Assembly: GCF_002954765.1 (NCBI RefSeq)
Contig: NZ_MTPW01000001.1
Location: 1,935,501-1,999,500 of the forward strand
Reading direction: 5' to 3'
DNA: 64,000 nt
Source: Nonlabens arenilitoris
GTDB lineage: Bacteria > Bacteroidota > Bacteroidia > Flavobacteriales > Flavobacteriaceae
The notes beneath the pieces are model-generated. The model was given only the letters and a program-made list of their open reading frames with translations, was not told the DNA's origin and did no database searches. The translations under genes and the position numbers were made by a program. Positions 4,412 to 61,256 of the stretch are shown piece after piece (positions within the stretch are counted from its first letter, which is position 1; the number at the start of each line of letters is the position of its first letter).

Positions 4412-5347
4412 ATGAATAAATTATTAACGATTATATTATTGTTTGCTTTCGCGAAAGCGGTTACAGCACAACAGGATCCACAATACACACAGTACATGTA
4501 TAATCCAATAACGATAAATCCGGCCTATGCAGGAAATCGTGGAGTGATGAGTATTGTCGGTCTTCATAGAAGTCAATGGGTAGGATTAGATGGCGCACCA
4601 CGCACTCAAAGTTTGTCATTACATACACCTATAGAGAACAGTCGAGTAGGTTTGGGATTAAGTGTAGTAAATGATGAGATAGGACCTAGTGATGAGACTT
4701 ATATAGCTGCCGACTTTAGTTATACTTTACCAGTAGGAGATGAGGCTCGATTAAGTTTTGGATTAAAAGGAGGAGTTCATTTATTAAATGTTGATTTTAC
4801 AAAGCTGAATATCTTTAATACATCAGATCCTAGGTTGCAGGAAAATATTGATAATAAGTTATCACCTACAGTGGGACTGGGATTGTATTATCATACAGAT
4901 CGTTTTTATGTAGGATTGAGTACGCCTAATGTGTTACAGACAAATCACTTTGATGATAGTAATGATACTAGTGCAACTACATTCATTGCAGAAGAGCGCA
5001 TACATTATTTTGCAACCGCAGGATATGTATTTGATTTAAATGACGATATTAAGTTTAAACCAGCAACCTTAGTTAAGATGGTAAATGGATCACCGTTACA
5101 GGTGGACTTAACGGCAAACTTTTTATTCAATGAGAAATTGACTTTAGGAGCAGCCTATCGCTGGAGTGCTGCGATAAGTGGACTGGTAGGATTTCAATTA
5201 AGTGATCAAATGATGATAGGATTTGCATATGATCGTGAAACGACAGAACTGGGTAATGCCCTATACAATGATGGAAGTTATGAACTCTTTGTGAGGTTTG
5301 AACTTTTCAATAGCTACGATAGAATAATAACGCCTCGATTCTTTTAA
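4412..5347 (+). CDS. PorP/SprF-family T9SS outer-membrane protein (copy 1)
   Basis: A 311-aa protein with an N-terminal signal peptide (about residues 1-19, ending VTAQ) followed by the family signature QQDPQYTQYMYNP..NPAYAG (residues 20-42), then alternating beta-strand-like sequence as expected for a 14-strand-type barrel. In Flavobacterium johnsoniae, SprF lies beside the adhesin gene sprB and is needed for its T9SS secretion; PorP is the P. gingivalis relative. The position directly after a type B CTD adhesin fits the same role. The signal-peptide h-region contains AFAKA, encoded by the recurrent 16-bp palindrome (4445-4459), which puts a Lys in the hydrophobic core. The protein is identical to the one encoded at 30883-31818. 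Confidence 0.9.
   Translation: MNKLLTIILLFAFAKAVTAQQDPQYTQYMYNPITINPAYAGNRGVMSIVGLHRSQWVGLDGAPRTQSLSLHTPIENSRVGLGLSVVNDEIGPSDETYIAADFSYTLPVGDEARLSFGLKGGVHLLNVDFTKLNIFNTSDPRLQENIDNKLSPTVGLGLYYHTDRFYVGLSTPNVLQTNHFDDSNDTSATTFIAEERIHYFATAGYVFDLNDDIKFKPATLVKMVNGSPLQVDLTANFLFNEKLTLGAAYRWSAAISGLVGFQLSDQMMIGFAYDRETTELGNALYNDGSYELFVRFELFNSYDRIITPRFF
4445..4459. repeat. Palindrome GCTTTCGCGAAAGCG (15 of 16 bp)
   Basis: Matches CGCTTTCGCGAAAGCG except for the first base. It lies in frame within the signal-peptide region of sprF copy 1, encoding AFAKA. Confidence 0.9.
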
Positions 5348-5358
5348 ATATAATCATA

Positions 5359-7350
5359 ATGATGAAAAATATACTAATTACTCTTGTTTGCCTTGTCTCT
5401 TTAATAAGTTATGGACAAGTAAAAGATGTAAAAAAGGCAAATAAAGAATTTGAAAAATTTGCATTTATTGATGCACAACAGATTTACCTAAAAGTCGTAG
5501 AAAAGGGCTATAAAAATGTTGAAATTCTATCTAAGTTAGGTGATACCTACTACTTTAATGATGAACTTACTGAGTCTTATAAATGGTATAAGGAGTTATT
5601 TGATTTAAACTCAGAATCGCTAGCTCCAGAGTATTATTTTAGATATGCGCAATCACTTAAAGCTGTGAAACGATATGCCGAAGCTGACGAATTAATGGCT
5701 AAATTTAATTCATATAAAGGATTTGATTCCCGTTCAAAATCTTATAGTGAGCAACCAGATTACCTACAAATTATTGACTTTCAATCTGGTCGATTTGAAG
5801 TAGAAAATACTGTGGCTATTAACTCAAGTACTGCAGATTTTGGACCATCTTATTATGGTGGTGCAAATCAGGTGGTATATGCAACAGCTAGAGATACAAA
5901 TTCATTTGTTAAAAGGACACACAGTTGGAATGATCAGGCATTTTTACAATTATATGTTGCAGATGCAGATGAGACTGGAAAACTTTCTAATGAAAAAAGG
6001 TTATCTAAAGTTTTAAATACTAGGTATCACGAGAGTACTCCTACATTTACTAGTGATGGGAATACAGTTTATTTTACCAGAAATAATTATAATGCAGGTG
6101 TTTACAGACAAGATATAGATGGTATAAATAAGTTAAAGATTTATAAATCAACAAAAAAAGGTAAATCATGGACTGCTCCAGTAGAATTACCTTTTAATAA
6201 TGATGAATACTCTGTTGCCCATCCTGCTTTGTCTCCTGACGGCAAATACCTTTATTTTGCTAGTGATATGCCAGGTAGTATAGGTTATGATAGTAATGAT
6301 GAGTTTACAAAATCAGATCTTTGGGTAGCTGCTATAAATGAGGATGGTAGCTTCGGAGAAATAAGAAACCTTACAGAGATTAATACTGAAGGTAGAGAGT
6401 CATTTCCGTTCGTATCTAAAAAAGGAATTTTATATTTTGCATCTACAGGTCATCAAGGCCTTGGTGGTCTAGATATATTTGCAAGTTCTATAAATCCTGA
6501 TGGAACTTTAAGTTTACCTATTAATATTGGTAAACCTGCAAACACAGAAGACGATGATTTTGCGTTTATCATAAACGATGATACTAATATGGGATACTTT
6601 TCTTCTAACAGGCCAGGTGGTCAAGGAGATGATGATATCTATCGATTTGTTCAGCTAGAAGATCTTAAAGACTCTTGTGAAATTATATTAACAGGTACTG
6701 TTACTGATGAGAAAACAGGCCTGCCTATGGATAAGGCTACTGTTATGGTGATGGATGCAAATAATAATAAAGTAGATCAATTAATAACCAAAGCAAATGG
6801 TAAATACGTTTTCAAATTAGAATGTGGTAAACAATATTTTGTGAGAACCGAAAAGGAGGACTATTCATCAGATGAGGATCTTTTTACAACTCCTACACAA
6901 AGTGATTTCTTAGATGTTCCACTAGCTATGGTAAATGAGAAAATCCCTGTTGTAGATTGTGATGACATTGCCCCATTGCTTAATATTAAAGATATTTACT
7001 TTGACTTTGATAGGTTCAATATTAGGCCAGATGCGGCACTAGAACTATCTAAGATATTAGCCTTTATGGAACTGTATCCTCAGACCTCTGTAGAGATAAG
7101 ATCTCACACAGATAGTAGAGCTCCTGATGCTTATAATGATGTGCTGTCAGAGAAAAGAGCACAAAGTACTAGAAAATGGTTGATAGAAAAAGGTATCAAC
7201 GCTTCTAGACTTACGGCAAAAGGTTATGGTGAACGACAGTTAGTTAATAACTGTTCTAATGGAGTAGATTGTACACCAGAAGAACACCAGTTAAATAGAA
7301 GATCTGAATTTATAGTGACAGGTCTAGGTCAATACAGTGATTGTGACTAG
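5359..7350 (+). CDS. OmpA-family protein with TPR, PD40 propeller and CRD domains (PorE-like), module 1
   Basis: 663 aa. Order: signal peptide (1 to about 20, ending ISYGQ), TPR-like helices (about 25-130; LGDTYYFND, KAVKRYAEA), WD40-like PD40 beta-propeller blades (about 150-430; HPALSPDGKYLYFASD, STGHQGLGGLDIF, YFSSNRPGG), a carboxypeptidase-regulatory-like domain (about 440-530; GTVTDEKTGLPM), and an OmpA C-terminal domain (about 540-655; IYFDFDRFNIRPDA, IRSHTDSR, LSEKRAQSTRKWL) expected to bind peptidoglycan. PorE of the P. gingivalis T9SS is described with this domain order. The start is 11 nt after the sprF stop, so it is probably co-transcribed. It likely anchors the secretion or adhesin machinery to the cell wall (inference). 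Its paralogue at 31830 shares about half its residues by eye. Confidence 0.85.
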   Translation: MMKNILITLVCLVSLISYGQVKDVKKANKEFEKFAFIDAQQIYLKVVEKGYKNVEILSKLGDTYYFNDELTESYKWYKELFDLNSESLAPEYYFRYAQSLKAVKRYAEADELMAKFNSYKGFDSRSKSYSEQPDYLQIIDFQSGRFEVENTVAINSSTADFGPSYYGGANQVVYATARDTNSFVKRTHSWNDQAFLQLYVADADETGKLSNEKRLSKVLNTRYHESTPTFTSDGNTVYFTRNNYNAGVYRQDIDGINKLKIYKSTKKGKSWTAPVELPFNNDEYSVAHPALSPDGKYLYFASDMPGSIGYDSNDEFTKSDLWVAAINEDGSFGEIRNLTEINTEGRESFPFVSKKGILYFASTGHQGLGGLDIFASSINPDGTLSLPINIGKPANTEDDDFAFIINDDTNMGYFSSNRPGGQGDDDIYRFVQLEDLKDSCEIILTGTVTDEKTGLPMDKATVMVMDANNNKVDQLITKANGKYVFKLECGKQYFVRTEKEDYSSDEDLFTTPTQSDFLDVPLAMVNEKIPVVDCDDIAPLLNIKDIYFDFDRFNIRPDAALELSKILAFMELYPQTSVEIRSHTDSRAPDAYNDVLSEKRAQSTRKWLIEKGINASRLTAKGYGERQLVNNCSNGVDCTPEEHQLNRRSEFIVTGLGQYSDCD

Positions 7351-7429: not shown

Positions 7430-9040
7430 CTATGCTTCCATAGGTTCAAACTCAGATACAAAATGAAATTTAATGCTAGGATATTTTTGTTGTGTCATTT
7501 GTAACGAGAAAGAAGAATCTGCTAGAAAAACTAGTTGATCTCGCTTATCATGAGCAAGAAACTTAGCCTTTACTCTTTTGAAATCTTTAAATTCAGCGCT
7601 GTTAACGTCCTTAGTTTCTATCCAGCAGGCCTTGTATACATTTAAGTTTTCATAGCTACAGGATGCGCCGTATTCGTGTTCTAGACGGTATTGTATAACC
7701 TCAAATTGCAGTGCGCCTACAGTACCTATTATTTTTCGGCCATTTAGCTCTAGAGTAAAAAGTTGTGCAACACCTTCATCCATTAATTGATCGATACCTT
7801 TTGCAAGCTGTTTAGACTTCATCGGGTCAGAATTATTAATGTATCTAAAGTGTTCTGGAGAAAAGGATGGTATTCCTTTATAATGTAACGTTTCACCAGA
7901 CGTTAACGTGTCACCTATTTTAAAATTACCAGTATCATGCAGCCCTACTATGTCACCAGGGAAAGACTCATCTACAATTTCTTTTTTCTCTGCAAAAAAA
8001 GCATTAGGGCTAGAGAATTTAAGGTTCTTATCTAGTCTTATGTGTTTATAGGCCTTGTTTCTCTCAAATACACCACTTACTATTTTAATAAAAGCTAGAC
8101 GATCTCTGTGCTTTGGATCCATATTAGCATGTATTTTAAAAACAAAACCGCTAAAATCAGATTCGTTAGGTTGTACTAAGCGTTCTTCTGCCTTTTTAGG
8201 TCTTGGAGCAGGAGCAATCTCTATAAATCCATCAAGTAATTCCTTAACACCAAAATTATGTAAAGCACTACCAAAAAAGACCGGTTGTAGATCTCCAGCT
8301 AGATACTCTTCTCTGTCAAAATCCGGATAAATCCCAGTAACTAGCTCTAGCTCATCTCTTAAAATTCCAGCGGCTTTATCACCTACCAGTTGATCCAGTA
8401 ACTGGTCGTCTAAGTTCTCAATAGCAGTAGTACTGTGTATGTCTTTAGAAGATGCACCAGTGAATAGATTAATGTTTTGTTTATGAATGTTATAGATCCC
8501 TTTCAAATCATAACCCATTCCTATAGGGAAACTTAATGGGGTAACTCTCAAACCTAACTTTTGTTCGATTTCATCCATTAAGTCAAAAGCGTCTTTACCT
8601 TCACGATCCATTTTATTTATAAAAACAATCATTGGTATATTACGCATTCTACAAACTTCGACTAGTTTCTCAGTTTGCTCCTCTACACCTTTTGCTACAT
8701 CTATTACTACAATGACACTATCTACAGCGGTTAGCGTTCTAAAAGTGTCTTCAGCAAAATCTTTGTGACCAGGTGTGTCTAAAATGTTGATTTTAATATT
8801 TTTATATTCAAAAGCTAGTACAGATGTTGCAACAGATATACCTCTCTGTCTCTCAATCTCCATAAAATCACTAGTAGCACCTTTCTTAATTTTATTGTTT
8901 TTCACGGCACCAGCTTCCTGTATGGCACCACCATATAACAACAGTTTTTCAGTTAAGGTCGTTTTTCCAGCATCTGGGTGAGATATAATACCAAAGGTCC
9001 TGCGTCTAGCGACCTCTTTCTCAAATTGTTTTTTATTCAT
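7430..9040 (-). CDS. prfC: Peptide chain release factor 3
   Basis: A 536-aa translational GTPase of the normal RF3 length. The G1 P-loop SHPDAGKTT is at about residues 20-28, followed by RQRGISV (switch I), DTPGHKDF (G3, about 88-95) and NKMDREG (G4, about 142-148). RF3 removes RF1/RF2 from the ribosome after termination. Its RF3-specific C-terminal region includes GALQFEVIQYRLEHEYG. It is a single gene on the minus strand between the two T9SS modules, with no functional link to them evident. It starts at ATG 9040. Confidence 0.97.
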   Translation of the reverse strand: MNKKQFEKEVARRRTFGIISHPDAGKTTLTEKLLLYGGAIQEAGAVKNNKIKKGATSDFMEIERQRGISVATSVLAFEYKNIKINILDTPGHKDFAEDTFRTLTAVDSVIVVIDVAKGVEEQTEKLVEVCRMRNIPMIVFINKMDREGKDAFDLMDEIEQKLGLRVTPLSFPIGMGYDLKGIYNIHKQNINLFTGASSKDIHSTTAIENLDDQLLDQLVGDKAAGILRDELELVTGIYPDFDREEYLAGDLQPVFFGSALHNFGVKELLDGFIEIAPAPRPKKAEERLVQPNESDFSGFVFKIHANMDPKHRDRLAFIKIVSGVFERNKAYKHIRLDKNLKFSSPNAFFAEKKEIVDESFPGDIVGLHDTGNFKIGDTLTSGETLHYKGIPSFSPEHFRYINNSDPMKSKQLAKGIDQLMDEGVAQLFTLELNGRKIIGTVGALQFEVIQYRLEHEYGASCSYENLNVYKACWIETKDVNSAEFKDFKRVKAKFLAHDKRDQLVFLADSSFSLQMTQQKYPSIKFHFVSEFEPMEA

Positions 9041-9090: not shown

Positions 9091-9108
9091 ACGCTTTCGC
9101 GAAAGCGT
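9091..9108. repeat. Intergenic palindrome ACGCTTTCGCGAAAGCGT
   Basis: An 18-bp perfect palindrome containing the recurrent 16-mer, in the 230-bp divergent gap between prfC and the giant adhesin gene, 51 bp upstream of the prfC start. Confidence 0.95.
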
Positions 9109-30818: not shown

Positions 30819-30828
30819 ATAATTTCAC

Positions 30829-30860
30829 GTATCCCGATTCGTTTTAACTTATCGGGATAC
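30829..30860 (+). terminator. Hairpin between giant adhesin gene and sprF copy 2
   Basis: GTATCCCGAT (30829-30838) pairs with ATCGGGATAC (30851-30860), a 10-bp perfect stem with a 12-nt loop, 11 nt after the adhesin stop. No T-run follows. It occupies the same place as the hairpin at 4358-4390 but has unrelated sequence. Confidence 0.55.
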
Positions 30861-30882
30861 ATTAATTGAAACATAAGAAGAG

Positions 30883-31818
30883 ATGAATAAATTATTAACG
30901 ATTATATTATTGTTTGCTTTCGCGAAAGCGGTTACAGCACAACAGGATCCACAATACACACAGTACATGTATAATCCAATAACGATAAATCCGGCCTATG
31001 CAGGAAATCGTGGAGTGATGAGTATTGTCGGTCTTCATAGAAGTCAATGGGTAGGATTAGATGGCGCACCACGCACTCAAAGTTTGTCATTACATACACC
31101 TATAGAGAACAGTCGAGTAGGTTTGGGATTAAGTGTAGTAAATGATGAGATAGGACCTAGTGATGAGACTTATATAGCTGCCGACTTTAGTTATACTTTA
31201 CCAGTAGGAGATGAGGCTCGATTAAGTTTTGGATTAAAAGGAGGAGTTCATTTATTAAATGTTGATTTTACAAAGCTGAATATCTTTAATACATCAGATC
31301 CTAGGTTGCAGGAAAATATTGATAATAAGTTATCACCTACAGTGGGACTGGGATTGTATTATCATACAGATCGTTTTTATGTAGGATTGAGTACGCCTAA
31401 TGTGTTACAGACAAATCACTTTGATGATAGTAATGATACTAGTGCAACTACATTCATTGCAGAAGAGCGCATACATTATTTTGCAACCGCAGGATATGTA
31501 TTTGATTTAAATGACGATATTAAGTTTAAACCAGCAACCTTAGTTAAGATGGTAAATGGATCACCGTTACAGGTGGACTTAACGGCAAACTTTTTATTCA
31601 ATGAGAAATTGACTTTAGGAGCAGCCTATCGCTGGAGTGCTGCGATAAGTGGACTGGTAGGATTTCAATTAAGTGATCAAATGATGATAGGATTTGCATA
31701 TGATCGTGAAACGACAGAACTGGGTAATGCCCTATACAATGATGGAAGTTATGAACTCTTTGTGAGGTTTGAACTTTTCAATAGCTACGATAGAATAATA
31801 ACGCCTCGATTCTTTTAA
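30883..31818 (+). CDS. PorP/SprF-family T9SS outer-membrane protein (copy 2)
   Basis: 311 aa, identical to the product of 4412-5347: signal peptide, QQDPQYTQYMYNP..NPAYAG signature and a beta-barrel-like body. It lies after the C-terminal part of the giant adhesin gene and 11 nt before the second OmpA/PorE-like gene, so it probably assists secretion or surface attachment of the giant protein, as SprF does for SprB. Because the two copies are identical, neither sequence alone can determine specificity for the two different adhesins. Their closely similar C-terminal sorting domains may be what both copies recognise (inference). Confidence 0.9.
   Translation: MNKLLTIILLFAFAKAVTAQQDPQYTQYMYNPITINPAYAGNRGVMSIVGLHRSQWVGLDGAPRTQSLSLHTPIENSRVGLGLSVVNDEIGPSDETYIAADFSYTLPVGDEARLSFGLKGGVHLLNVDFTKLNIFNTSDPRLQENIDNKLSPTVGLGLYYHTDRFYVGLSTPNVLQTNHFDDSNDTSATTFIAEERIHYFATAGYVFDLNDDIKFKPATLVKMVNGSPLQVDLTANFLFNEKLTLGAAYRWSAAISGLVGFQLSDQMMIGFAYDRETTELGNALYNDGSYELFVRFELFNSYDRIITPRFF
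30916..30930. repeat. Palindrome GCTTTCGCGAAAGCG (15 of 16 bp)
   Basis: Same in-frame AFAKA-encoding palindrome as 4445-4459, carried within the duplicated sprF segment. Confidence 0.9.
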
Positions 31819-31829
31819 AAATAAAGATT

Positions 31830-34851: not shown

Positions 34852-35822
34852 TGAAGTTATACCCGTTAAGTTTCGAGCCTATTTTAAAGGATAAAATATG
34901 GGGTGGAGATAAACTCAATAAGATAAAAAATATAGAGCCGCCCATATCAAAACTAGGAGAAAGCTGGGAGATTTCAGTTGTCGAAAATGATATAAGTGTC
35001 GTGAAATCAGGTGCTTATCGAGGTCTTAATCTTAATGAGTTGATTGAGAAATTCCCACAAGAATTACTAGGTGAAAAGGTTATTGAACAACACGGTAAAC
35101 AGTTTCCACTACTTATTAAATATATCAATGCGGCACAAGATTTATCGATTCAGGTACATCCCGATGATGCTGTAGCTATGAAAAAGCACAACAGTTTTGG
35201 TAAAACTGAAATGTGGTATATTATGGATGCGCAACCAGATTCAAGATTGATTTTAGGATTTAAGGAAGAGAGTAATAAAGACGCTTTCGCGAAAGCGATA
35301 TCTGAAAACACTGTAATGGATTTATTTAATCAAATCGAGGTTACAGAAGGTGATTCTTTCTTTATTAAACCGGGCTTAGTACATGCCATAGGTGCAGGGA
35401 TTACCCTTGCTGAAATTCAACAGTCTAGCGATATTACCTATAGAGTATACGATTTTGATAGAAGAGATCATTTAGGGAATGCAAGAGAACTACACATAGA
35501 CGACTCTATAGAAGTTAGTGATTATAAAGTGTCTCATAATCATGTGATTGATTATAATCCTAATCAATCAGGTGAACAGAATCTAGCCACTAATCAATAT
35601 TTTACAACAGATTATCTTTTCTTTAAAGGATGCAAGCGTATCGAAGTGAATGTGCATAAAAGTTTTATGGTATTAATGAATGTAGGTAAGTCTTGCGATG
35701 TGTACTGTAATGGCATAAGTCATAAACTAGAGCCTGCACAGACTATTTTAATACCTGCTGCGGTACCCTATGTATTAGTAAAATCTAGTAATGAAGCAAA
35801 ATTGTTGAGCGTTCATCTATAG
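34851..35822 (+). CDS. manA: Type I phosphomannose isomerase (mannose-6-phosphate isomerase)
   Basis: 323 aa, the length of the short bacterial class I enzymes. It interconverts mannose 6-phosphate and fructose 6-phosphate, feeding GDP-mannose and surface glycans. Metal-site motifs are visible: SIQVHPDD (about 97-104), KTEMWYIMDA (about 113-122) and PGLVHAIGAG (about 173-182), followed by DITYRVYDFDR (about 193-203). The residues DAFAKA (about 144-149) are encoded by a copy of the 16-bp palindrome. It is third in the idi-queD-manA run. Confidence 0.93.
   Translation: MKLYPLSFEPILKDKIWGGDKLNKIKNIEPPISKLGESWEISVVENDISVVKSGAYRGLNLNELIEKFPQELLGEKVIEQHGKQFPLLIKYINAAQDLSIQVHPDDAVAMKKHNSFGKTEMWYIMDAQPDSRLILGFKEESNKDAFAKAISENTVMDLFNQIEVTEGDSFFIKPGLVHAIGAGITLAEIQQSSDITYRVYDFDRRDHLGNARELHIDDSIEVSDYKVSHNHVIDYNPNQSGEQNLATNQYFTTDYLFFKGCKRIEVNVHKSFMVLMNVGKSCDVYCNGISHKLEPAQTILIPAAVPYVLVKSSNEAKLLSVHL
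35282..35297. repeat. Palindrome CGCTTTCGCGAAAGCG in manA
   Basis: Exact 16-mer inside the coding region, read as AFAKA. Confidence 0.95.
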
Positions 35823-38306: not shown

Positions 38307-38322
38307 CGCTTTCGCGAAAGCG
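38307..38322. repeat. Intergenic palindrome CGCTTTCGCGAAAGCG
   Basis: Exact copy with A/T extension to an 18-bp palindrome (38306-38323). It lies between two minus-strand genes, about 15 nt past the end of the hydrolase gene. Confidence 0.95.
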
Positions 38323-40732: not shown

Positions 40733-41338
40733 CTATGGTTTAACAATCTTTCTAAAGGTAAGGTTGATACGTTCATCAATAGGTCTTTTAGTTTTGGCAA
40801 TTTGATGTTTATAGGTATGTTGTGTTTGACCTGCCATAACTAATAAGCTGCCGTGTTGTAGTGGGAATTTAAATTTCCAGTCTTTATTATTAAGATGTTT
40901 TAAATGAAAAAACCTTTCTTGACCTAGACTTATAGAAGCAATTACTGGATTGGTTCCTAGTTCTTTTTCATTATCTGCATGCCAGCCGTTAGAATCTTGC
41001 CCATTTCTATATCTATTTATGAGGCAAATATTAAATGTTGCACCTGTAGCATTTTCAACATCTTGCTTAATTTTTTGCAGTGTCTTGGTCCATGGTAACG
41101 CATTAAAAGAGATGTTGCTGTAACCGTAATTTATTCCTGGATCTCCATAGAGCTGGGTTAGTCTAGGTTCGTCATATTCTTTACCATAAACCGTAATCTT
41201 ATTTTGTCTCCATGGTGTTTCTTTGATTAATATGGATAGTAGTTCTTGCGCTTCCGCGAAAGCGTAAAAATTACCATCATAATGCACTAGAGCATCTGGT
41301 ATATCTGGAAAATCTGTCGGGAACAAATTGTTATGCAT
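40733..41338 (-). CDS. alkB: AlkB-family Fe(II)/2-oxoglutarate-dependent dioxygenase
   Basis: 201 aa, typical of AlkB homologues related to eukaryotic ALKBH2/3. It has the iron-binding WHADNE motif (about 117-122), the distal His in TQHTYKHQ (about 172-179) and the RINLTFRKI motif (about 190-198) whose arginine binds 2-oxoglutarate. It is expected to reverse alkylation on DNA or RNA by oxidative demethylation. AFAEA (about residues 26-30) is encoded by a one-mismatch copy of the 16-bp palindrome. It is divergent from the fabH-like gene. Confidence 0.93.
   Translation of the reverse strand: MHNNLFPTDFPDIPDALVHYDGNFYAFAEAQELLSILIKETPWRQNKITVYGKEYDEPRLTQLYGDPGINYGYSNISFNALPWTKTLQKIKQDVENATGATFNICLINRYRNGQDSNGWHADNEKELGTNPVIASISLGQERFFHLKHLNNKDWKFKFPLQHGSLLVMAGQTQHTYKHQIAKTKRPIDERINLTFRKIVKP
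41249..41264. repeat. Palindrome variant CGCTTCCGCGAAAGCG in alkB
   Basis: One mismatch from the 16-mer. Read on the minus strand as AFAEA. Confidence 0.85.
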
Positions 41339-45255: not shown

Positions 45256-46365
45256 TTGGATTTATCCATTATCATACTTAATTATAATGCTGCAGCTTTT
45301 CTTGAGCAGTGTTTATATAGTGTTCTTAAAGCGGTCAACAATATTGATGCAGAGGTTATTGTGGTTGATAACGACTCTACAGATCACAGTGTTGAAATGT
45401 TGCAAAACAATTTTCCACAAGTTAAGTTGGTTACAAATCAAGAGAATCTAGGCTTTTCAAAAGGTAATAATATTGGAGTGCAACACGCGCAAGGTGATTA
45501 CTTAGGCATTCTTAATCCCGATACCATTGTTGGAGAAACGGTTTTTGATGAAGTTCTCGCTTTCGCGAAAGCGAATCCACAAATAGCATTCACTACCACA
45601 CAATTGATAGACGGCATAGGATCTTATTTGCCAGAAAGCAAACGCAATGTCCCAACTCCACAAATCGCTAGACAGAAAATCTTAGGTAATGATTCTAAAT
45701 ATTATGCTAGTCATTTAAAAAAAGATGAGAATGGAGAGATAGAAGTGCTGGTAGGAGCGATGATGGTTTGTAAAAAGTCTGTTTACGAGAAGTTAGGTGG
45801 TTTTGACCCAATGTATTTCATGTATGGTGAGGACATTGATCTTAGCTACACAGCGTTGCAACATGGTTATCGCAATTATTATTTAGGCAAGCTTAAAGTC
45901 ATACATTTTAAAGGAGAAAGTACGGTAAAGGATAGAAAATACTTAGAGCGCTTTTATGGTGCTATGGGATTATTTTATAACAAACATTTTAAGAAATCCA
46001 AAATAGAAAAAGCACTAGTAGATCTTGCCTTAAAAGGTATTATCGCTGCAAAATCTATAGAAAATGAAAATGTCGTAAATACAAATAGCTCCTATAAAGT
46101 CCTTGTTACTAATGATAATACACTTCAATTACAACTATGTGATGAGGTAATTACTTATGAGCAGTTATGTAGTCGTGAGCATAGTGCTCAAACTCAATTT
46201 ATTTGGGATACGGCGACACTTTCCTTTGATGAAATAATCAATTTTATGGCCGGCAACACATCGTTACAGTATACTTATCGCTTCTTAAATGTAAAACGCA
46301 ATTTAATTATAGGAAGTGATAGTAGTTCCTCTCGTGGAGAGGTTAAAGAGCTGATGCCTCAGTAG
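45256..46365 (+). CDS. Family 2 glycosyltransferase (TTG start)
   Basis: 369 aa. The start is TTG at 45256, 2 nt after recR; the first in-frame ATG would remove the N-terminal strand LSIIILNYN and the VDNDSTDHS motif, so TTG is favoured. GT-A landmarks are NYNAAAFLEQCL (about 9-20), the DNDS motif (about 38-41), NPDTIV as the DXD equivalent (about 93-98) and GEDIDLSYTALQHGY (about 190-204). The form resembles rhamnosyltransferase-like cell-surface enzymes. LAFAKAN (about 100-106) is encoded by a palindrome copy. Confidence 0.88.
   Translation: MDLSIIILNYNAAAFLEQCLYSVLKAVNNIDAEVIVVDNDSTDHSVEMLQNNFPQVKLVTNQENLGFSKGNNIGVQHAQGDYLGILNPDTIVGETVFDEVLAFAKANPQIAFTTTQLIDGIGSYLPESKRNVPTPQIARQKILGNDSKYYASHLKKDENGEIEVLVGAMMVCKKSVYEKLGGFDPMYFMYGEDIDLSYTALQHGYRNYYLGKLKVIHFKGESTVKDRKYLERFYGAMGLFYNKHFKKSKIEKALVDLALKGIIAAKSIENENVVNTNSSYKVLVTNDNTLQLQLCDEVITYEQLCSREHSAQTQFIWDTATLSFDEIINFMAGNTSLQYTYRFLNVKRNLIIGSDSSSSRGEVKELMPQ
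45558..45573. repeat. Palindrome CGCTTTCGCGAAAGCG in the glycosyltransferase gene
   Basis: Exact 16-mer, in frame as AFAKA. Confidence 0.95.
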
Positions 46366-48227: not shown

Positions 48228-49367
48228 TTAAGCGATATATAAAGCCTGATACTTTCTAGCAGTGTCAATAGCATTATGATGTCTCTCTACAAATTCTCTA
48301 GCTTCTTTACCTAATTTAAAAATTTCATCAGGATGTTCGATGAGGTTAGATAGTTCTTGCACTAGATAATCAACATCTGGTTTGGCATCTATAAGTGGAG
48401 CCTTTTCAAGTTGATAAGCTTTTAAAAATGGTATTCCAGCTCCTGCAAACACAACTTTACCTTGTGCCATTGCTTCTAGTGCATTATAACCTTGATCATA
48501 GCTAAGGACTTGATCTAGTAAGATGTGACTTTTTTGATAGGACTTGATGTATTCATCATAAGGCAAGTTTTCGGCAATGGTGATATTTACTTTTTGACTG
48601 TATTTAGATTTTAAAATATCAAGGGATTTTTCAAAATAAGGAATCCCTTTTTTAAAATAGTTTCCTCTATTAATCCCCATAAAGATTTCGATAGGTTGCG
48701 CGATATGATTTTGATGCAATTCAAGTTGCTCCATAATTACTGCACTGGGAATCATGTCAGCACATTTAGGTTCTTCAGTTAATGCCATTTGAAAATCAGT
48801 ATGAGATGGTATGATGGCTTTGCACTTGCTTAATAATCGATCATAATTCTCTCGATATCCTTTTTTTAGGTATTTAAAAGTATGGAGATATTGGTTTTTT
48901 AGAGAAGTGTCTTCTAGATATGGTGTCAGTATACTGTAGCCTTGATGTTTTTCGGTTAGATACTGTGCATATGGATAGTCATCTCCACAAGCTACTAAAA
49001 AAGCTTTGTTATTATTTTTGAGAAGGTAATCAATCATTTGCCACTCGATCGGTGGTTCACAACCCAGCGCGTTTGAATTGATAAATTGAACGATATCATA
49101 ATCTATCATAAGATGCTCGCTTTCGCGGAAGCGTGCTAAACGAATATTATCCTCAAGATTATGACCGGTAAGTTTCCACCAGGCTACTTTAACTTTTTCT
49201 CGCAACCAGTCTCTTCTAAAGTAATCACTACCTACTTCTATGTCTACAGGAAATTTTTTAAAACCATCACCATCGCCCACAAGAGTTACCTCGTGACCTA
49301 ATTGTTGAAGTCCATATTTAAGAGAATTGTGAAAACCACTGTACTCGCCTATGAGCAAAATGCGCAT
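48228..49367 (-). CDS. GT-B fold glycosyltransferase (group 1 / family 4-like)
   Basis: 379 aa. An N-terminal Rossmann half begins MRILLIGEYSGFHNSLKYGL, with a Gly-rich nucleotide-fold start. The C-terminal half has the donor-site region SYDQGYNALEAMAQGKVVFAG (about 292-312; E-x7-type acidic motif) and ends AREFVERHHNAIDTARKY. It is expected to be cytoplasmic and to use a nucleotide sugar. The residues LARFRESE (about 79-86) come from a one-mismatch palindrome copy. It is divergent from the 49398 glycosyltransferase and is the left end of a small surface-sugar cluster. Confidence 0.85.
   Translation of the reverse strand: MRILLIGEYSGFHNSLKYGLQQLGHEVTLVGDGDGFKKFPVDIEVGSDYFRRDWLREKVKVAWWKLTGHNLEDNIRLARFRESEHLMIDYDIVQFINSNALGCEPPIEWQMIDYLLKNNNKAFLVACGDDYPYAQYLTEKHQGYSILTPYLEDTSLKNQYLHTFKYLKKGYRENYDRLLSKCKAIIPSHTDFQMALTEEPKCADMIPSAVIMEQLELHQNHIAQPIEIFMGINRGNYFKKGIPYFEKSLDILKSKYSQKVNITIAENLPYDEYIKSYQKSHILLDQVLSYDQGYNALEAMAQGKVVFAGAGIPFLKAYQLEKAPLIDAKPDVDYLVQELSNLIEHPDEIFKLGKEAREFVERHHNAIDTARKYQALYIA
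49118..49133. repeat. Palindrome variant CGCTTTCGCGGAAGCG in the GT-B gene
   Basis: One mismatch from the 16-mer. It is read in a different frame here, as RFRES. Confidence 0.85.
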
Positions 49368-53145: not shown

Positions 53146-56100
53146 ATGAAAAAAATCGTGCTTACTCTGTTGCTGGCTGCTACTTCTTTTATAGAGGTTA
53201 ACGCACAACAGTCCAAAATATTTACAGATGACCTGCGCACTTATAATCAGGCGATTGATTTATATCAAGAGCAGCAATACATTGCAGCGCAACGTTTATT
53301 TGAAAAAGTAAAAAATCAGGTAGAAGATGATGCCATTCAAGGTAATGCGGCATATTACATCGCAAATTGTGCCGTGCGTTTGAACCAGCGCAATGCAGAC
53401 GCGCTTATGGAATCTTTCGTTGAAGAGTATCCTACTTCTACAAAACGCAATACGGCTTTTATTGATGTGGCAGATTTCTATTTTGATAATGGTAAATACA
53501 ACCAGGCGGCAAAATGGTATGAAAAGGTTGATGAGAGCACGCTTTCGCGAAAGCAAAAAAGCAGATACTATTTCAATACTGGATATACTCTTGTGCAAAG
53601 CAAAAAGTATGAAGAGGCAAAACCTTATCTAAATCGAGTAAGTGATGATCCAGAATATGGATCGCAGGCAAAATATTATCTAGGGTACATCGCTTATGAA
53701 GGAGACGATTATCAAGAAGCTAGCGATTTATTTGATGAAGCTGGAGAATCACCTGATGAGGATGAAAAGCTTTCTTACTATCAGGCAGATTTAAATTATA
53801 AGTTAGGGAATTTTGATAAAGCTATTACTCTTGCAAATGAGCAACTATCTCGCTCTACACCACAAGAACAGTCTGAATTAAATAGAATCATAGGACAAAG
53901 TCTTTTTAATCAAGGTAAATATGATCAAGCACTACCTTATTTACAAGAATATAAAGGTGTGCGCGGCAGGTTGAATAATAATGATTACTATCAGTTAGGA
54001 TATGCTTATTACAAACAAGGCGATTTTGAAAAGGCTGTAGAGACTTTTAATAAAATCGTAGATGGTGAGAATAAAACGGCACAAAATGCATACTACCATC
54101 TAGCGCAGAGCTATATTAAACTTAATAAAAGCGAAGATGCATTGACTGCTTTTAAGAAAGCGAGTGAGATGGATTTTGACGCTCAGATCCAGCAAGATGC
54201 TAGTTACAACTATGCTAAGATCAGTTATGAATACGGCAATCCATATGATAGTGTGCCTGCTGTAATACTGGCTTATCTAGAAAAATATCCAAACACTGAT
54301 AAAAATGCAGAGATGAATGAATTCTTAATAGATTCATATTTCTCTTCAAAAAACTATACTGAGGCATTGCGTCTTATGGAAGATGGACGTATTGCTGGCA
54401 ATGAAGATGTGTATGGTAAAGTGGCGCTTTATGAAGGTTTGAGTCAATTTAAATCAGGAGATTATAAAAAATCTATAGAGAACCTTAATAAAACCATTCA
54501 ATATGCGCAGTCTGCAGATTTAAAAAAGAAAGCAACTTTTTGGAAGGCAGAAAGTTATTATGAACTCAATGATTTTCCGGCAGCACTTACTGCTTTTAAT
54601 GCTGTAAAGAAAATGAATAATAGTATTGAAGAAGATGATTTATTGAACTATGACCTAGCTTATACACAGTTTAAACTTAAAAATTACACTAATGCCATCA
54701 ATACATTCACCGCTTATACAAAGCAATCTGGTATTAATAATGAGCCAGCTAGATTGAATGATGCTTACCTGCGAATAGGTGATGCAAACTTTGTAAGTAA
54801 GCAATACTGGCCAGCAATGGAGGCTTATAATAAATCCATTTCAATGAATGGTTTTAATGCAGATTATGCGGCATTTCAAAAGGCTATTTCATATGGTTTT
54901 GTAGGTAAGAATGATCGTAAGATTGAAGACCTTAACGGGTTTTTAAATAAATTCAATAAATCTGCTTATCGCGATGACGTGTTGTATGAATTAGGTAATA
55001 CATACATTAATACAAATAATGTTGATAAAGGTATACAGACCTATGACCGATTAATTAATGAATTTCCACAAAGTAGTTACACCTCGCAAGCGATGATGCG
55101 TAAAGGGTTACAGCTTTATAACGATTCAAAACTAGATGATGCATTAGTAGTGTTTAAAGATGTTGTAGCAAGATATCCAGGCACGCCACAAGCAAATGAA
55201 GCTGTAAGTAGTGCACGATTGATTTATGTGGATCAAAACCGTACTAATGACTATGCCGCATGGGTGCGCACACTGGACTTTGTAGATGTGAGCGATTCTG
55301 AGTTGGATGATACGGCTTATGAAAGTGCAGAGCAGCCTTATCTACAAAATGATATGTCTGGAACAACACGTTCTATGAGAAAATATCTAGCAGAATATCC
55401 TAATGGTAAACACACATTACAAGCACACTTTTATCTAGCACAAGCATTGTTTTCTCAAGATAAAAAACAAGAGTCTATCGCTAGTTATGAATATGTGATT
55501 AATAAAGAACGCAGTGAGTTTACAGAACAAGCTTTGGCACGTTTAAGTGAGATTTACTTGGGCGATAAAGCTTATGCAAAAGCGATTCCAGTGCTCACTC
55601 AATTAGAACAACTAGCAGATTTTCCTCAAAATGTGATTTATGCACAGTCTAACCTGATGAAAGCATATTATGAGCAAGAAAATTATAACCAGTCTGTGAG
55701 TTATGCAAATAAGGTGTTGTCAGACCTTACTATAAGTGATAATGTAAGATCAGATGCAAACGTGATTATTGCTCGCTCAAGTTGGAAAACAGGAAACGAA
55801 GCTGCTGCAAAAACAGCTTATGAAGCGGTAAGATTGAATGCAAGTGGTACACTAGCGGCAGAGGCTACTTACTTTAAAGCTTATTTTGAACATAAAGCAA
55901 GTAATTATGACGCTGCCATCGCTACTGTGCAAAGTCTTACTAAAAACTATGCTGGTTATAAATTATGGACTTCAAAAGGTTTAGTAATTATGGGTAAATG
56001 TTATAACGCACAAGGGCAAACATTAAATGCAACTACTATACTAGAATATGTCGTTGGTAATTTTGCTCAATACCCAGAAGTAGTCGCTAGCGCTCAAGCA

Positions 56101-56166
56101 GAATTAGACGCTATAAAAACTAACGCTGCCAAAACAAATTCATCAGTAGTTCCTGCAGGAAATTAA
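53146..56166 (+). CDS. Exported TPR-repeat protein
   Basis: 1006 aa with a signal peptide (1 to about 20, ending VNAQ) and tetratricopeptide repeats through most of its length (for example YYQLGYAYYKQGDFEKAVETF about 284-304, in two stretches, and later DELGN-like repeats). This long TPR protein is conserved in Bacteroidota and is predicted to be periplasmic or outer-membrane associated, acting as a scaffold. It starts divergently from ftsE and is followed 11 nt after its stop by an outer-membrane barrel protein, suggesting a complex between the two (inference). TLSRK (about 132-136) comes from a palindrome copy. Confidence 0.88.
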   Translation: MKKIVLTLLLAATSFIEVNAQQSKIFTDDLRTYNQAIDLYQEQQYIAAQRLFEKVKNQVEDDAIQGNAAYYIANCAVRLNQRNADALMESFVEEYPTSTKRNTAFIDVADFYFDNGKYNQAAKWYEKVDESTLSRKQKSRYYFNTGYTLVQSKKYEEAKPYLNRVSDDPEYGSQAKYYLGYIAYEGDDYQEASDLFDEAGESPDEDEKLSYYQADLNYKLGNFDKAITLANEQLSRSTPQEQSELNRIIGQSLFNQGKYDQALPYLQEYKGVRGRLNNNDYYQLGYAYYKQGDFEKAVETFNKIVDGENKTAQNAYYHLAQSYIKLNKSEDALTAFKKASEMDFDAQIQQDASYNYAKISYEYGNPYDSVPAVILAYLEKYPNTDKNAEMNEFLIDSYFSSKNYTEALRLMEDGRIAGNEDVYGKVALYEGLSQFKSGDYKKSIENLNKTIQYAQSADLKKKATFWKAESYYELNDFPAALTAFNAVKKMNNSIEEDDLLNYDLAYTQFKLKNYTNAINTFTAYTKQSGINNEPARLNDAYLRIGDANFVSKQYWPAMEAYNKSISMNGFNADYAAFQKAISYGFVGKNDRKIEDLNGFLNKFNKSAYRDDVLYELGNTYINTNNVDKGIQTYDRLINEFPQSSYTSQAMMRKGLQLYNDSKLDDALVVFKDVVARYPGTPQANEAVSSARLIYVDQNRTNDYAAWVRTLDFVDVSDSELDDTAYESAEQPYLQNDMSGTTRSMRKYLAEYPNGKHTLQAHFYLAQALFSQDKKQESIASYEYVINKERSEFTEQALARLSEIYLGDKAYAKAIPVLTQLEQLADFPQNVIYAQSNLMKAYYEQENYNQSVSYANKVLSDLTISDNVRSDANVIIARSSWKTGNEAAAKTAYEAVRLNASGTLAAEATYFKAYFEHKASNYDAAIATVQSLTKNYAGYKLWTSKGLVIMGKCYNAQGQTLNATTILEYVVGNFAQYPEVVASAQAELDAIKTNAAKTNSSVVPAGN
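53540..53554. repeat. Palindrome CGCTTTCGCGAAAGC (15 of 16 bp) in the TPR gene
   Basis: Matches the 16-mer except the last base. Read in a third frame as TLSRK. Confidence 0.85.
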
Positions 56167-56177: not shown

Positions 56178-57920
56178 ATGAAATTATATCAATCATATAT
56201 ATCAGTTGTCATCGCATTAATAGCTTTTAGCAATGCGCAGGCACAAGTAGAAGAAGAAAGTGAATTGAATGGTGGAACCATTACGGTTGTAAAACCTTAT
56301 GATCCTACCATTAGTGATGCCTTTAAAGTAAAAAGCACACCATCAGTAAATGACACGACCAAGGTTAAGAAAAAGCCAGTTACCTATAGCATTTTCTCTG
56401 TGCCGGTAGCATCTACTTTTACACCAGCCAAAGGAAAATTGTCTAGACGCAAAGCTCCTAAAAGAGCAAAATTCTTTGATAATTATGCACGATTAGGTGT
56501 TGGTAATTACGTGAACATCTTAGGAGAGTTTGCAGGTAATTTTGAGATAGATAGAGACTCAGACGTAGGCGTGTTTTTTAATCATAACTCATCGCAAGGT
56601 GGTATCGATGACATTGCTTTTGACGATGATTTTTCAGATACGTCTCTAGACATATCTTATGGAAAACGCAATCGCGATTCAAATTGGGGAATTACCGCTG
56701 GTGGTAGGTATCAAACCGCAAACTGGTATGGTGTAGCACCAGTAGCGTTATCTAGTGTTCCTACCGGTATAGAGGTAGATGCTGGGACTTCTTATTTAAC
56801 CATAGGCCTGTCTGGTAAAGCACAGTTCTTTGATTCTGTTTTAGAAAAGGTTGAGGTAGGACTTTCTAATATAAGTTCTGGTAATGATGGTTCTGAAACT
56901 CGAGTAAGATTACAACCACAACTAGCATTTGAAGTACTTGAAGAAGAAATTGCACTAGGAGTTGAGGTAGATTACTTAACCGGTTCTTTTGATACACAAG
57001 GATCACTACCAGCGCCAGACGCTTATTCTTATTTAAACATAGGAGCAAATCCTAGTATCAATCTTTATGGCGATAAGTATAAAGTAGAATTAGGAGCTCG
57101 ATTAAATTATATCACAGACAGTGAGAATTCTGAAAGTAACTTTTATGTCTATCCAGATATTAATGCCAGCTATATATTGATGGAAGAAAAAGTGATTGCT
57201 TATACGGTCATCGGTGGTGGATTAGATATGAATACATTACAAAATTTTGCAGATGAGAACGTATTTATCGCTCCAGCAATAACCGTAGCGCCTACTAATC
57301 GTCAGGTAGATGCACAATTAGGGATCAAAGGAAAGCTGTCTTCTAATTTTGGTTACAAGCTTTATGGAGGTTATAGCCTAGAAGAAAACAGATATTTCTA
57401 TACTAAAGATAATAATGCCATTTTCACAGGAATCGGAGTTGAGCGACCATCCTACAATTATGCAAATACATTTGCGACTCAATATGGTGATTTAAACACA
57501 TTGACTTTTGGAGGATCTGCAAGTGTGGATTTAAATACTCAATTCAATCTTACCTTAAATACTCAGTTCATGAGTTATGACGTCACTAATGGCGACGATT
57601 TTGATAACGTAGCATCGCAGTTACCAACCTTTACTGCAGATATTGTCGGTAACTATGATATCAATGATAAATGGAACATCGGGACAACGCTATACTTCGT
57701 CGGAGAGCGTGATGTTTTCAGAATCGGTAACACAACGGCAACAGAAACTTTAGATTCCTTTATAGACTTGAATCTAGATATCAATTATAAAATTAACCCT
57801 AAGTTGACCGCTTTCTTAAGAGGTCACAATCTTACTGGCGGCAACTACCAGTATTATCTAGACTATCCTGTACAGAATTTACAGATTTTAGGTGGTGCAG
57901 TCTATAAGTTTGATTTTTAA
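56178..57920 (+). CDS. Outer-membrane beta-barrel protein, TonB-receptor-like without plug
   Basis: 580 aa with a signal peptide (1 to about 23, ending NAQAQ), a short region EEESELNGGTITVVKPYDPT reminiscent of a receptor N-terminus, then amphipathic strands of a barrel ending in a terminal aromatic (YKFDF), the usual outer-membrane signal. Homologues are often labelled TonB-dependent receptor, but no clear plug domain or CarboxypepD-like domain is present and 580 aa is short for that family. It is paired with the exported TPR protein 11 nt upstream; together they may form an outer-membrane assembly or transport unit (inference). Confidence 0.82.
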   Translation: MKLYQSYISVVIALIAFSNAQAQVEEESELNGGTITVVKPYDPTISDAFKVKSTPSVNDTTKVKKKPVTYSIFSVPVASTFTPAKGKLSRRKAPKRAKFFDNYARLGVGNYVNILGEFAGNFEIDRDSDVGVFFNHNSSQGGIDDIAFDDDFSDTSLDISYGKRNRDSNWGITAGGRYQTANWYGVAPVALSSVPTGIEVDAGTSYLTIGLSGKAQFFDSVLEKVEVGLSNISSGNDGSETRVRLQPQLAFEVLEEEIALGVEVDYLTGSFDTQGSLPAPDAYSYLNIGANPSINLYGDKYKVELGARLNYITDSENSESNFYVYPDINASYILMEEKVIAYTVIGGGLDMNTLQNFADENVFIAPAITVAPTNRQVDAQLGIKGKLSSNFGYKLYGGYSLEENRYFYTKDNNAIFTGIGVERPSYNYANTFATQYGDLNTLTFGGSASVDLNTQFNLTLNTQFMSYDVTNGDDFDNVASQLPTFTADIVGNYDINDKWNIGTTLYFVGERDVFRIGNTTATETLDSFIDLNLDINYKINPKLTAFLRGHNLTGGNYQYYLDYPVQNLQILGGAVYKFDF

Positions 57921-57925
57921 AATTT

Positions 57926-57941
57926 CGCTTTCGCGAAAGCG
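57926..57941. repeat. Intergenic palindrome CGCTTTCGCGAAAGCG
   Basis: Exact copy 5 nt after the stop of the barrel-protein gene. The self-complementary RNA could act as a short hairpin, but no T-run follows. Confidence 0.95.
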
Positions 57942-57980: not shown

Positions 57981-58325
57981 ATGAATGAAATATTTGAGTT
58001 AAGACATCAACCAGAATTGAAGTTCATTATAGGTGAAGACAGTTTTCAAATTATCGACGGCTATGATCTTGGGAATAATGGTGAATATCCATTTGAAATT
58101 TTCAAAAGCGCCTTGTTAAATAATGACAGAACGAACTGGTGGATTTCTATCGCAAGTATTGTTGTCGACCTATTTTCAGGAAGTGCTGTTGGTGGTAAGT
58201 TTAAGGATAAAGCAAACCTTATTCTTGAAATGAAAAATCAAAAAAATATCATCTATTTAATGGATGCTGATTTTGAAAAAGCAAAACAAGTTACTGAGCT
58301 TCTTAATTCTAAAAGTAAAATTTAA
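57981..58325 (+). CDS. Hypothetical protein, possible PH-like fold
   Basis: 114 aa without a signal peptide. A hydrophobic stretch around WWISIASIVVDLFSGSAVGG (about 54-73) could be a membrane segment or a buried strand-helix. The strand-rich body followed by a C-terminal helix (FEKAKQVTELLNS, about 97-109) is reminiscent of a bacterial PH-like domain, but I do not recognise the family. It lies 9 nt upstream of the lipoprotein gene on the same strand, so the two are probably co-transcribed. Confidence 0.7.
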   Translation: MNEIFELRHQPELKFIIGEDSFQIIDGYDLGNNGEYPFEIFKSALLNNDRTNWWISIASIVVDLFSGSAVGGKFKDKANLILEMKNQKNIIYLMDADFEKAKQVTELLNSKSKI

Positions 58326-58334
58326 TCTGGTATT

Positions 58335-59105: not shown

Positions 59106-59212
59106 GTTGAGTGGTAATAATATTTAACTTTTTGATGTTAGGCATAAGAGAACTCAAAAACTTTCACAGCATTTTATATTTCTGTTCGTTTTCTATGGCT
59201 TAATTTTCGGTC

Positions 59213-60847
59213 ATGAAAAAAATTTACCTACTCGCGCTATCTATTATTTTAATTTCTTGTAATAAGGAGCAACAAGCAACTGCTGACTTAATTATTACCA
59301 ATGCAAAAATTTATACCGTAGATAATGACTTCTCTGTGGCAACAGCAATGGCTGTAAAAGATGGTAAAATACTCGCTACAGGAACTAATGCTGAGGTGCA
59401 AGTTTATAGCGCAACACAAACCATAGATGCACAAGGAAAAGCCATCGTTCCAGGATTAATCGATGGACATTGTCATTTCTATGGATTAGGACAACAGTTA
59501 CAACGCGTAGATCTAGTAGGAACTAAAAGCTATGATGAGGTCCTAGAAAGAATCTCTAGTTTCCAAAAAGAGAAAAATAAATCTTTTATCATAGGTCGTG
59601 GTTGGGATCAAAACGACTGGGAAATTCAAGAATTCCCTTCAAATCAAGAGCTTAATGAAATGTTTCCTAACACACCAGTCGCCATTACTCGTATAGATGG
59701 TCACGCCATGATTGCAAATCAAGCAGCACTAGACGCAGCCGGAATAACCATAACTACAGACGCATCTGGCGGAGCTATTGAAATTAAAAATGGCGAACTC
59801 ACAGGGATTTTAGTTGATAACCCTATGGAATTAGTAGAGGCTGTTTTTCCTAAAGAAACAACTCAAGAATCTATCGCATCGTTAATGGCGGCACAAGACA
59901 TTAATTTGAGCTATGGATTAACCACCGTTGATGATGCGGGATTATTTAAAGAAACGATTGAATTAATAGATAGTTTGCAACAAGCTGGTGATTTAAAAGT
60001 TAAGATGTATGCGATGATTAGCAACACGCCAGAGAATCTAGACTATTACCTCAATAAAGGAATCATAAAAACAGATCGTTTAAATGTAAGATCTGTTAAG
60101 TTTTATGCAGATGGTGCTCTGGGAAGTCGTGGTGCAGCGATGAAAGAACCTTATTCTGATAGACACGATCATTATGGAGCGCTACTTAGCCCTATAGAAA
60201 CCATTAAAGAAACCGCAGCTCGTATAGCAGCAACAGAGTATCAAATGAACACGCACGCCATAGGTGATAGTGCCAACTATGTGGTACTTAAAACTTATCA
60301 AGAATTATTAAAAGATAAAACAGACAGACGCTGGAGAATTGAGCATGCTCAAATCGTTGACTCTGCAGATTTCAATCTTTTTGACGAGCAAAATATTCTG
60401 CCATCTGTACAGCCTACACATGCGACCAGTGATATGTACTGGGCACAAGATCGAGTAGGAGCAGACCGAATTAAAGGTGCTTATGCTTATCAAACTCTTT
60501 TGAAACAATCGAAGAGAATCGCACTAGGAACAGATTATCCAGTAGAACAAGTAAATCCATTCTTGACATTTTATGCAGCCGTAGCTCGTCAAGATACGAG
60601 TGGTTATCCAGAAGGTGGCTTTTTACCAGAGCAAGCCTTGAGTAGAGAAGATGCCTTGAGAGGTATGACTATTTGGGCGGCTTATTTCAATTTTGAAGAA
60701 ACAGAAAAAGGAAGTTTAGAGCCAGGAAAGGCTGCAGACTTTGTGATTCTTAATGATAACATTATGGAGATTCCAGTAACTCAATTACATCAGGCTACCG
60801 TAAAATCAACCTTCATAAATGGAGAACAGGTTTATGAGTCTAAGTAG
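59213..60847 (+). CDS. YtcJ-like amidohydrolase lipoprotein
   Basis: 544 aa. Signal with lipobox LISC (Cys 16) suggests an outer- or inner-membrane lipoprotein. Amidohydrolase family 3 landmarks are [13 protein letters not shown] (about 81-93; HxH metal ligands), [10 protein letters not shown] (about 159-168), [12 protein letters not shown] (about 297-308), NTHAIGD (about 344-350) and LGTDYPVE (about 440-447). These enzymes hydrolyse amide or related bonds of small molecules; the substrate is unknown. The gene end overlaps the convergent VOC gene by 8 nt. Confidence 0.9.
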
Positions 60848-61256
60848 CAAATACCTGACTCATATCCTTAAAGGCTTTGAATTCTAAGGCGTTTCCGCTT
60901 GGATCTTTAAAGAACATAGTGGCCTGCTCGCCTGGTAATCCTTCAAATCTTATGTACGGTTCTATGATGAACTCGATGCCTTTTTCTTGTACCGCTTTCG
61001 CGAAAGCGTGAAAAACATCCCACTCTAGCACCACACCAAAGTGAGGAACTGGCACCGCTTTTCCATCTACGGCATTTGTTGCGTTTACAGGAGCATTATC
61101 AGAAATATGAATCACTAGTTGATGACCGAAGAAATTAAAATCTACCCAATGGTCTGAACTGCGTCCTTCTTCACAACCTAAGGTGTCTCGATAAAATGCT
61201 CGTGTGGTAGTGATTTCTTTTACTGGGATAGCGAGGTGAAAAGGTGTGAGTTTCAT
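60840..61256 (-). CDS. VOC-family protein (glyoxalase/bleomycin-resistance fold)
   Basis: 138 aa with two beta-alpha-beta-beta-beta halves. [20 protein letters not shown] (about 3-22) starts the first, and [10 protein letters not shown] (about 70-79) starts the second; [12 protein letters not shown] (about 118-129) holds the typical C-terminal Glu. The His, His, Glu metal ligands of dioxygenase-like members are plausible, but the reaction cannot be named. HAFAKAV (about 84-90) is encoded by a palindrome copy. It is transcribed toward the amidohydrolase gene and separated from clpP by a terminator. Confidence 0.88.
60993..61008. repeat. Palindrome CGCTTTCGCGAAAGCG in the VOC gene
   Basis: Exact 16-mer, read as AFAKA on the minus strand. 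Confidence 0.95.

Follow-up and report, generated by a model that had tools for sequence, protein, structure and literature searches.

The window analyzed here is a 64-kb stretch, positions 1,935,501–1,999,500 of a 3.3-Mb contig of the Nonlabens genome G000, and it contains 11 matches to one 16-bp perfect palindrome, CGCTTTCGCGAAAGCG (hereafter the motif). Six of the matches are exact, five have one mismatch and none has two; the recount is identical to that of an earlier note on this DNA. In 100 dinucleotide shuffles of the window, the mean number of matches was 0.01, and chance, which the note had judged negligible, is rejected as the source of the 11 copies. Placement on the open reading frames (ORFs) also confirmed that eight copies lie within ORFs and three between them, and that the giant repeat ORF (9271–27027) has none.

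All three copies between ORFs are exact. The copy at 9092..9107 is located between the divergent ORFs 7430–9040 (minus strand) and 9271–27027 (plus strand), the copy at 38307..38322 is located between ORFs 36918–38246 and 38337–39287 (both on the minus strand), and that at 57926..57941 lies 5 bp past the stop of ORF 56178–57920, ahead of ORF 57981–58325. Within ORFs, the exact copies 35282..35297, 45558..45573 and 60993..61008 encode DAFAKA (ORF 34851–35822), LAFAKA (ORF 45256–46365) and HAFAKA (ORF 60840–61256, minus strand), respectively. The five copies with one mismatch are found at 4444..4459 (codons for FAFAKA, close to the start of ORF 4412–5347), 30915..30930 (FAFAKA, ORF 30883–31818), 41249..41264 (YAFAEA, ORF 40733–41338, minus strand), 49118..49133 (RFRESE, ORF 48228–49367, minus strand) and 53540..53555 (TLSRKQ, TPR-repeat ORF 53146–56166). 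The coordinates given in the earlier note were right for nine copies and off by one for those at 4444 and 30915. The same two copies do not lie in unrelated genes, as had been thought of all the coding copies: the 30915 copy is a duplicate of the 4444 copy, and since the two are in duplicated genes with identical flanks, they are not independent. Two similar three-ORF modules (68–7350 and 27174–33809) stand on either side of the giant repeat ORF; their 311-residue middle ORFs have identical sequence surrounding a motif copy.

Four of the window copies were followed in other genomes. The position of the 41249 copy is kept in all seven congeners that have an aligned orthologue in the stretches compared, and the 49118 copy was found with 0–2 mismatches in all 14 congeners compared. 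The 45558 copy is retained in some congeners and absent in others; G234, which belongs to another genus, uses the equivalent position at ∼42% protein identity. Most congeners compared retain the 53540 copy. It is missing or decayed in G004, G017, G019 and G020, and these four genomes have another motif copy further along the same TPR-repeat gene.

In the whole genome of G000, 634 copies with up to one mismatch were found; the reversed motif, which is also a palindrome and of equal composition, gave 0 copies. Detailed mapping was performed on a sample of 1.2445 Mb that includes the window and covers 37% of the genome. Copies with 0, 1, 2 and 3 mismatches number 158, 66, 29 and 9 in this sample (262 in total), and one order-4 Markov simulation of equal length produced 0 copies in each of the four classes.

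The motif is restricted in its distribution. All 22 congeneric (Nonlabens) genomes searched have between 362 and 897 copies. In an even sample of 397 genomes of the family, hundreds of copies were found only in three genera, namely Nonlabens, Dokdonia (g225; 879 copies in G250) and g209 (377 copies in G234), and the remaining genomes have 0–27. The inner 12-mer follows the same pattern, with 558, 917 and 445 copies in G000, G250 and G234, respectively. In a phylum-wide draw of 296 genomes, only G000 has more than eight copies, and a scan of named genome contigs gave at least 111 stretches, 96 of them from Nonlabens, Dokdonia or BBFL7 records and 15 from others. Many genomes outside the high-copy group (non-carriers) have one or a few copies only. 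In the non-carrier G120, all 21 copies are inside 78 kb of one contig (G120:C3:32330–110030); in G330 and G095, also non-carriers, the copies are on three contigs each and mostly clustered. Certain intercopy distances recur (933 and 2446 bp, for example) and tie these clusters to clusters in further genera, and relatives of the G120 island were seen in G330, G095, G122, G145, G204 and G259. Judged by eye, the G120-type island carries metal-efflux type genes; it is apparently a transferred element, common to several Flavobacteriaceae genera that are otherwise without the motif. For the terms searched, no title or abstract among the best-matching open-access papers describes the motif; in the same library, no paper was found to contain the 12-mer or anything longer, and those with the inner 10-mer were assessed from their titles.

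Along the chromosome, the copies are evenly spread. After the nine three-mismatch sites were dropped, the remaining 253 sites (up to two mismatches) gave 233 gaps, with a median of 4.1 kb and a 5–95% range of 1.9–9.5 kb. None of the gaps is shorter than 500 bp, one is shorter than 1 kb and 15 are shorter than 2 kb; with the genic/intergenic split kept, 27.2, 47.6 and 82.8 are expected, respectively, and plain random placement expects 23 gaps below 500 bp and 44 below 1 kb. The coefficient of variation of the gaps is 0.61, compared with 0.98 expected. Gaps below 500 bp are rare yet present in G234 and G250 (1 of 23 and 2 of 20, respectively), for which smaller samples were counted by the inner 8-mer. 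With increasing distance from the origin, density shows no trend (Spearman −0.17, p 0.47), and both an origin–terminus gradient and a Noc-like depletion at the terminus are rejected for the 20 sampled blocks. One of the largest gaps, a 16-kb motif-free stretch at G000:C1:507329–523294, overlaps an apparent ribosomal protein gene cluster (by eye); another is occupied by the giant repeat ORF of the window.

With ORFs called by a simple length rule, 92 of the 253 sites are intergenic, whereas intergenic DNA makes up 10% of the sample. The other 161 sites are in ORFs and use all three frames (AFAKA 85, RFRES 38 and LSRKR 38), and the first 90 bases of genes are enriched (31 sites, 14 expected). 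The perfect inverted repeat and the intergenic excess are what a mobile repeat of the REP or MITE type, or an RNA hairpin terminator, would give. Such an origin is very improbable. The terminator is rejected on the grounds that the intergenic sites do not clearly favor any gene orientation and that most sites are in ORFs. The inserted repeat is rejected because the flanks are not homologous, having common base preferences and no conserved sequence, and because of the state of the orthologues in non-carriers: the site is present in none of the 44 comparisons, 34 of which are gapless and 10 gapped. Counted by site, 11 of the 16 G000 sites that have a non-carrier orthologue align without gaps to other codons, and five are gapped. 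The absence of the site from gapless orthologues indicates that the copies arise mostly by substitution.

The site extends beyond the palindrome. The flanks are AT-rich, and at the 92 intergenic sites the symmetrised preferences include A at −1 (0.68), T at −2 (0.71), A at −4 (0.60), T at −9 (0.76) and G at −14 (0.39). Further outward the A–T skew oscillates, peaking 18.5, 36.5 and 54.5 bp away from the dyad; in G000, these peaks are seen both at 91 intergenic and at 159 coding sites, each set taken separately. Compared with 500 shifted controls, the spectral power of the skew is higher than in all of them in G000 and, narrowly, also at other named Nonlabens loci (77 sites, partly orthologues of G000 sites). 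The 16-mer is thus the core of a dyad-symmetric site of at least 44 bp, which in Nonlabens reaches ∼55 bp on each side. Different from the 18–20 bp of the Nonlabens flanks, ordinary A-tract curvature is phased at the helical repeat of 10–11 bp, according to a passage in PMC3940949.

Within Nonlabens, the sucB region of 15 other genomes supplied sites for comparison, both among these genomes and against G000. Among the resulting 790 site-pairs, which trace back to a fairly small set of independent positions, 493 are retained (up to two mismatches), 199 are aligned without a site and 98 are gapped; at 50–90% protein identity, 446 of 677 are retained. Where the peptide is identical (proteins 50–80% identical, 44 query sites), 234 of 307 pairs (76%) agree in every codon, compared with 555 of 12,582 five-codon windows (4.4%) elsewhere in the same genes. 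Within Nonlabens, the motif is constrained at the codon level. An excess over the Markov expectation beyond the window and conservation in relatives had both been at issue in the earlier note, and both were found.

Between genera, few positions are shared: one of 12 from Dokdonia to G000 and one of nine from G234 to G000, and at 50% identity or more one of 14 (1/7 and 0/7, respectively). From other Nonlabens to G000, 55 of 88 positions are shared. In a small, five-gene phylogeny, the carriers G250 and G234 group with the non-carriers G033 and G330, and this group is separated from G029 and Nonlabens (ultrafast bootstrap 82; FastTree 0.99), so the carriers are not one clade in this tree. As the positions are mostly unshared between genera, the motif seems to have built up separately in the carrier lineages. 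Separate build-up calls for a trans-acting factor that the lineages share, and it is highly probable that a dedicated factor of this kind maintains the motif.

Mobile DNA was searched as well. The exact motif is present in 41 stretches of viral contigs, some of which belong to other hosts and have a single copy in GC-rich DNA. Two groups of tailed-phage contigs, recognized by portal, capsid, head protease, terminase, tape measure or tail sheath proteins and in one group also by an integrase, carry several copies; no nucleotide similarity was reported between the groups. In a 37.4-kb phage contig, six exact copies and one single-mismatch copy were found in the 27.9 kb examined. In L183 and L191, which have ∼65% DNA identity, a gene of head-maturation type carries a copy at roughly matching positions (one and two mismatches; positions compared without alignment). 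A BLAST search of the viral capsid region against phages gave no match, and another gave distant relatives only. Two related Nonlabens phages that have no annotated integrase, and are presumed to be lytic, contain 0 copies (up to two mismatches) over a total of 71 kb; ∼14 would be predicted at the host rate. Similarly, 0 copies were found in a 29-kb contig of G008 that encodes a plasmid-type replication protein and whose ends are partly repeated. In G000, contigs C2 and C3 have their own genes repeated in inverted order and are probably assembly artefacts of chromosomal DNA; they resemble inverted duplications and were not counted as plasmids.

Integrated mobile DNA with the motif and two presumed lytic phages without it, together with one evenly spread site per 4–5 kb, would also suit a Chi-like mark for self or for processing, acting on broken or incoming DNA and, being palindromic, working from both sides. 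Chi-type sites, however, are short, oriented and biased to one strand, whereas the motif is long, symmetric and without orientation, and in Nonlabens it is flanked by phased AT tracts. A Chi-like role is therefore improbable.

To look for the factor that reads the motif, gene families were compared between 11 carriers and 11 non-carriers. The earlier note had likened the motif to highly iterated palindromes (HIP1), uptake sequences and architecture signals. These likenesses hold as leads; the link to methylation is unsupported for the two methyltransferase families tested. Neither the C5 methyltransferase (PF00145) nor the N6/N4 methyltransferase (PF01555) can be a requirement, as each has no match in five of the 11 carriers, G000 included in the case of PF00145, and G010, which has 601 copies, matches neither family at E <= 1e-10. 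This counts against a HIP1-like element, in which the core would be read by a methyltransferase and the palindrome would accumulate through biased repair or through methylation signalling. We know of no methyltransferase that reads 16 bp, and TCGCGA is largely restricted to the motif, with 204 of its 281 occurrences inside motif copies. The likeness is nevertheless real in part: the motif is a GC-rich palindrome in a low-GC genome, and 38 of the 66 one-mismatch copies deviate at the first or last base, just as deviations at end positions are described in PMC4390886 for HIP1 and alternative HIPs, likewise iterated palindromes. According to the same account, different cyanobacterial lineages have different palindromes, HIP1 is 8 bp in length and has cognate methyltransferases; by comparison, the motif has 16 bp plus long flanks, depends on neither tested family and shows strong short-range exclusion. 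Overall, a HIP1-like element is unlikely.

A palindromic DNA-uptake sequence has far more in its favor. A putative surface receptor would prefer fragments with the motif, and transformation would spread and maintain the copies by molecular drive, as for the uptake signal sequences (USS) and DNA uptake sequences (DUS) of Pasteurellaceae and Neisseriaceae. The flank of USS is AT-rich. The 158:66:29 mismatch profile, the copies in genes, the intergenic enrichment, the AT-rich flank and the exclusion of redundant neighbours all fit. USS and DUS likewise occur in hundreds of near-exact copies, genic with an intergenic excess and fairly even in spacing, as described in parts of PMC1939737 and PMC7811141. 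Some help also comes from Riemerella (placed in Flavobacteriaceae), which is reported to be naturally competent and to favor its own DNA, with machinery that is partly unknown (excerpts of PMC7965970 and PMC8459023). ComEC (PF03772), the only competence gene searched, was found in all 11 carriers; it is also present in 10 of the 11 non-carriers and hence does not discriminate. Different from the motif, a perfect 16-bp palindrome with a symmetric flank, USS and DUS are non-palindromic according to PMC1939737, and they are denser: PMC7811141 gives ∼1 kb for Haemophilus influenzae, while the motif, known here from sequence alone, has a spacing of ∼4 kb. We know of no uptake sequence with a dyad-symmetric flank whose phasing reaches 55 bp to either side. 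No transformation data for Nonlabens or Dokdonia turned up in literature searches that were only loosely aimed at these genera. The uptake sequence explains most of the same facts as the reading that we favor and is a close second to it, a serious candidate that we would still bet against.

The favored reading is an intracellular site for chromosome architecture, to which we give a probability of roughly 0.45. It is favored because of the perfect dyad, the long, symmetric and phased flanks, the short-range exclusion and the even coverage, and because the motif is present in integrated replicons and, in the few cases tested, absent from free ones; DNA that resides in the chromosome or can join it, namely the island and the phage contigs (one group with an integrase), carries it. 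A putative, probably dimeric, sequence-specific protein would nucleate on the 16-bp palindrome and then occupy or wrap the flanks in steps of ∼18–20 bp, so that the chromosome would be anchored or compacted roughly every 4 kb. The skew steps of 18–20 bp would then reflect stepwise protein occupancy, and the system, acting on chromosome structure through the bound protein, would have a patchy history of spread or loss within the family. We more tentatively suggest a new kind of chromosome-organizing system in marine flavobacteria, which is possible though somewhat doubtful, with nucleation on an exact palindrome, an assembly of ∼110 bp, one point per ∼4 kb and a site network rebuilt in each genus; adapted phages and integrative elements would be included in the chromosome-resident DNA.

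Known systems of chromosome organization share some of these features. The SegB site of Sulfolobales is likewise a scattered, mostly intragenic palindrome tied to chromosome organization, as outlined in PMC12284271; the same outline gives 13 bp and 46 motif sites, several of them clustered near segAB, whereas the motif has hundreds of evenly spread copies. The motif has a different centre from the parS and Noc sites, far more copies and no origin bias, and it resembles them in length and arms. These sites are palindromes of 14–16 bp with TTTC...GAAA arms. G000 has an exact canonical parS at 1,338,579, separate from the motif. An extra ParB paralogue is rejected as the factor: a single ParB-domain match is found in nine of the 11 carriers and nine of the 11 non-carriers. 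ParB-domain proteins encoded by 616-aa open frames were observed at G015:C1:2891885, G019:C1:1269093 and G033:C18:76088, beside the usual single ParB; the one in G033 adjoins the motif cluster of that genome.

Several observations weigh against an architectural role. Across the 11 carriers and 11 non-carriers, the number of ParB copies does not follow the presence of the motif, and no binding protein was found by the ParB, ComEC, PF00145 and PF01555 tests or in a list of 67 basic soluble proteins from the sampled 37% of G000, none of which is compelling by eye. A general chromosome organizer in just three sampled genera would be odd, and even spacing with exact copies also fits accumulation driven by uptake, as far as PMC7811141 describes it. 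In Dokdonia and G234, the phasing of the flanks does not reach significance, and the best Fourier period of the Nonlabens phasing is 19–20 bp, compared with 18 bp from peak to peak. In a fast-evolving set (40–50% protein identity), none of 59 within-Nonlabens site-pairs is retained, so the low sharing between genera is partly due to divergence; other Nonlabens share four of 12 positions with G234. Genomes of some g146 species (G360, G596, G630 and G646) have 5–8 dispersed near-copies each; they are not confined to one island, and the reversed control gives 0. The free-replicon tests are small (one plasmid and two related phages), and since the viral contigs were found through the motif, their density is biased upwards.

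Either an architectural or an uptake role would, to our knowledge, be new for Bacteroidota. A chromosome landmark of this kind would rank with the densest and longest networks of exact sites that we know of, with a spacing rule that can be read from sequence. An uptake sequence would be the first in the phylum and the first palindromic one that we know of, and it would open a way to study the uptake machinery of Flavobacteriaceae, parts of which are unknown. Genera that built up the motif separately would provide a natural experiment in how regularly spaced sites are acquired.

Other iterated words were also looked for in other genera. No comparable palindrome was found in 19 stretches (18 of 20 kb and one of 11.5 kb), with a test that detects the motif in 49 of 60 G000 stretches. 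In L327 (G187), four same-strand copies of a conserved element of ∼55 bases were noticed within 6 kb, at ∼5223, 6006, 9606 and 11203. This element is below the threshold of every Rfam family and non-palindromic; it starts with CGCGAAAGACAGACA and has TGTCT downstream.

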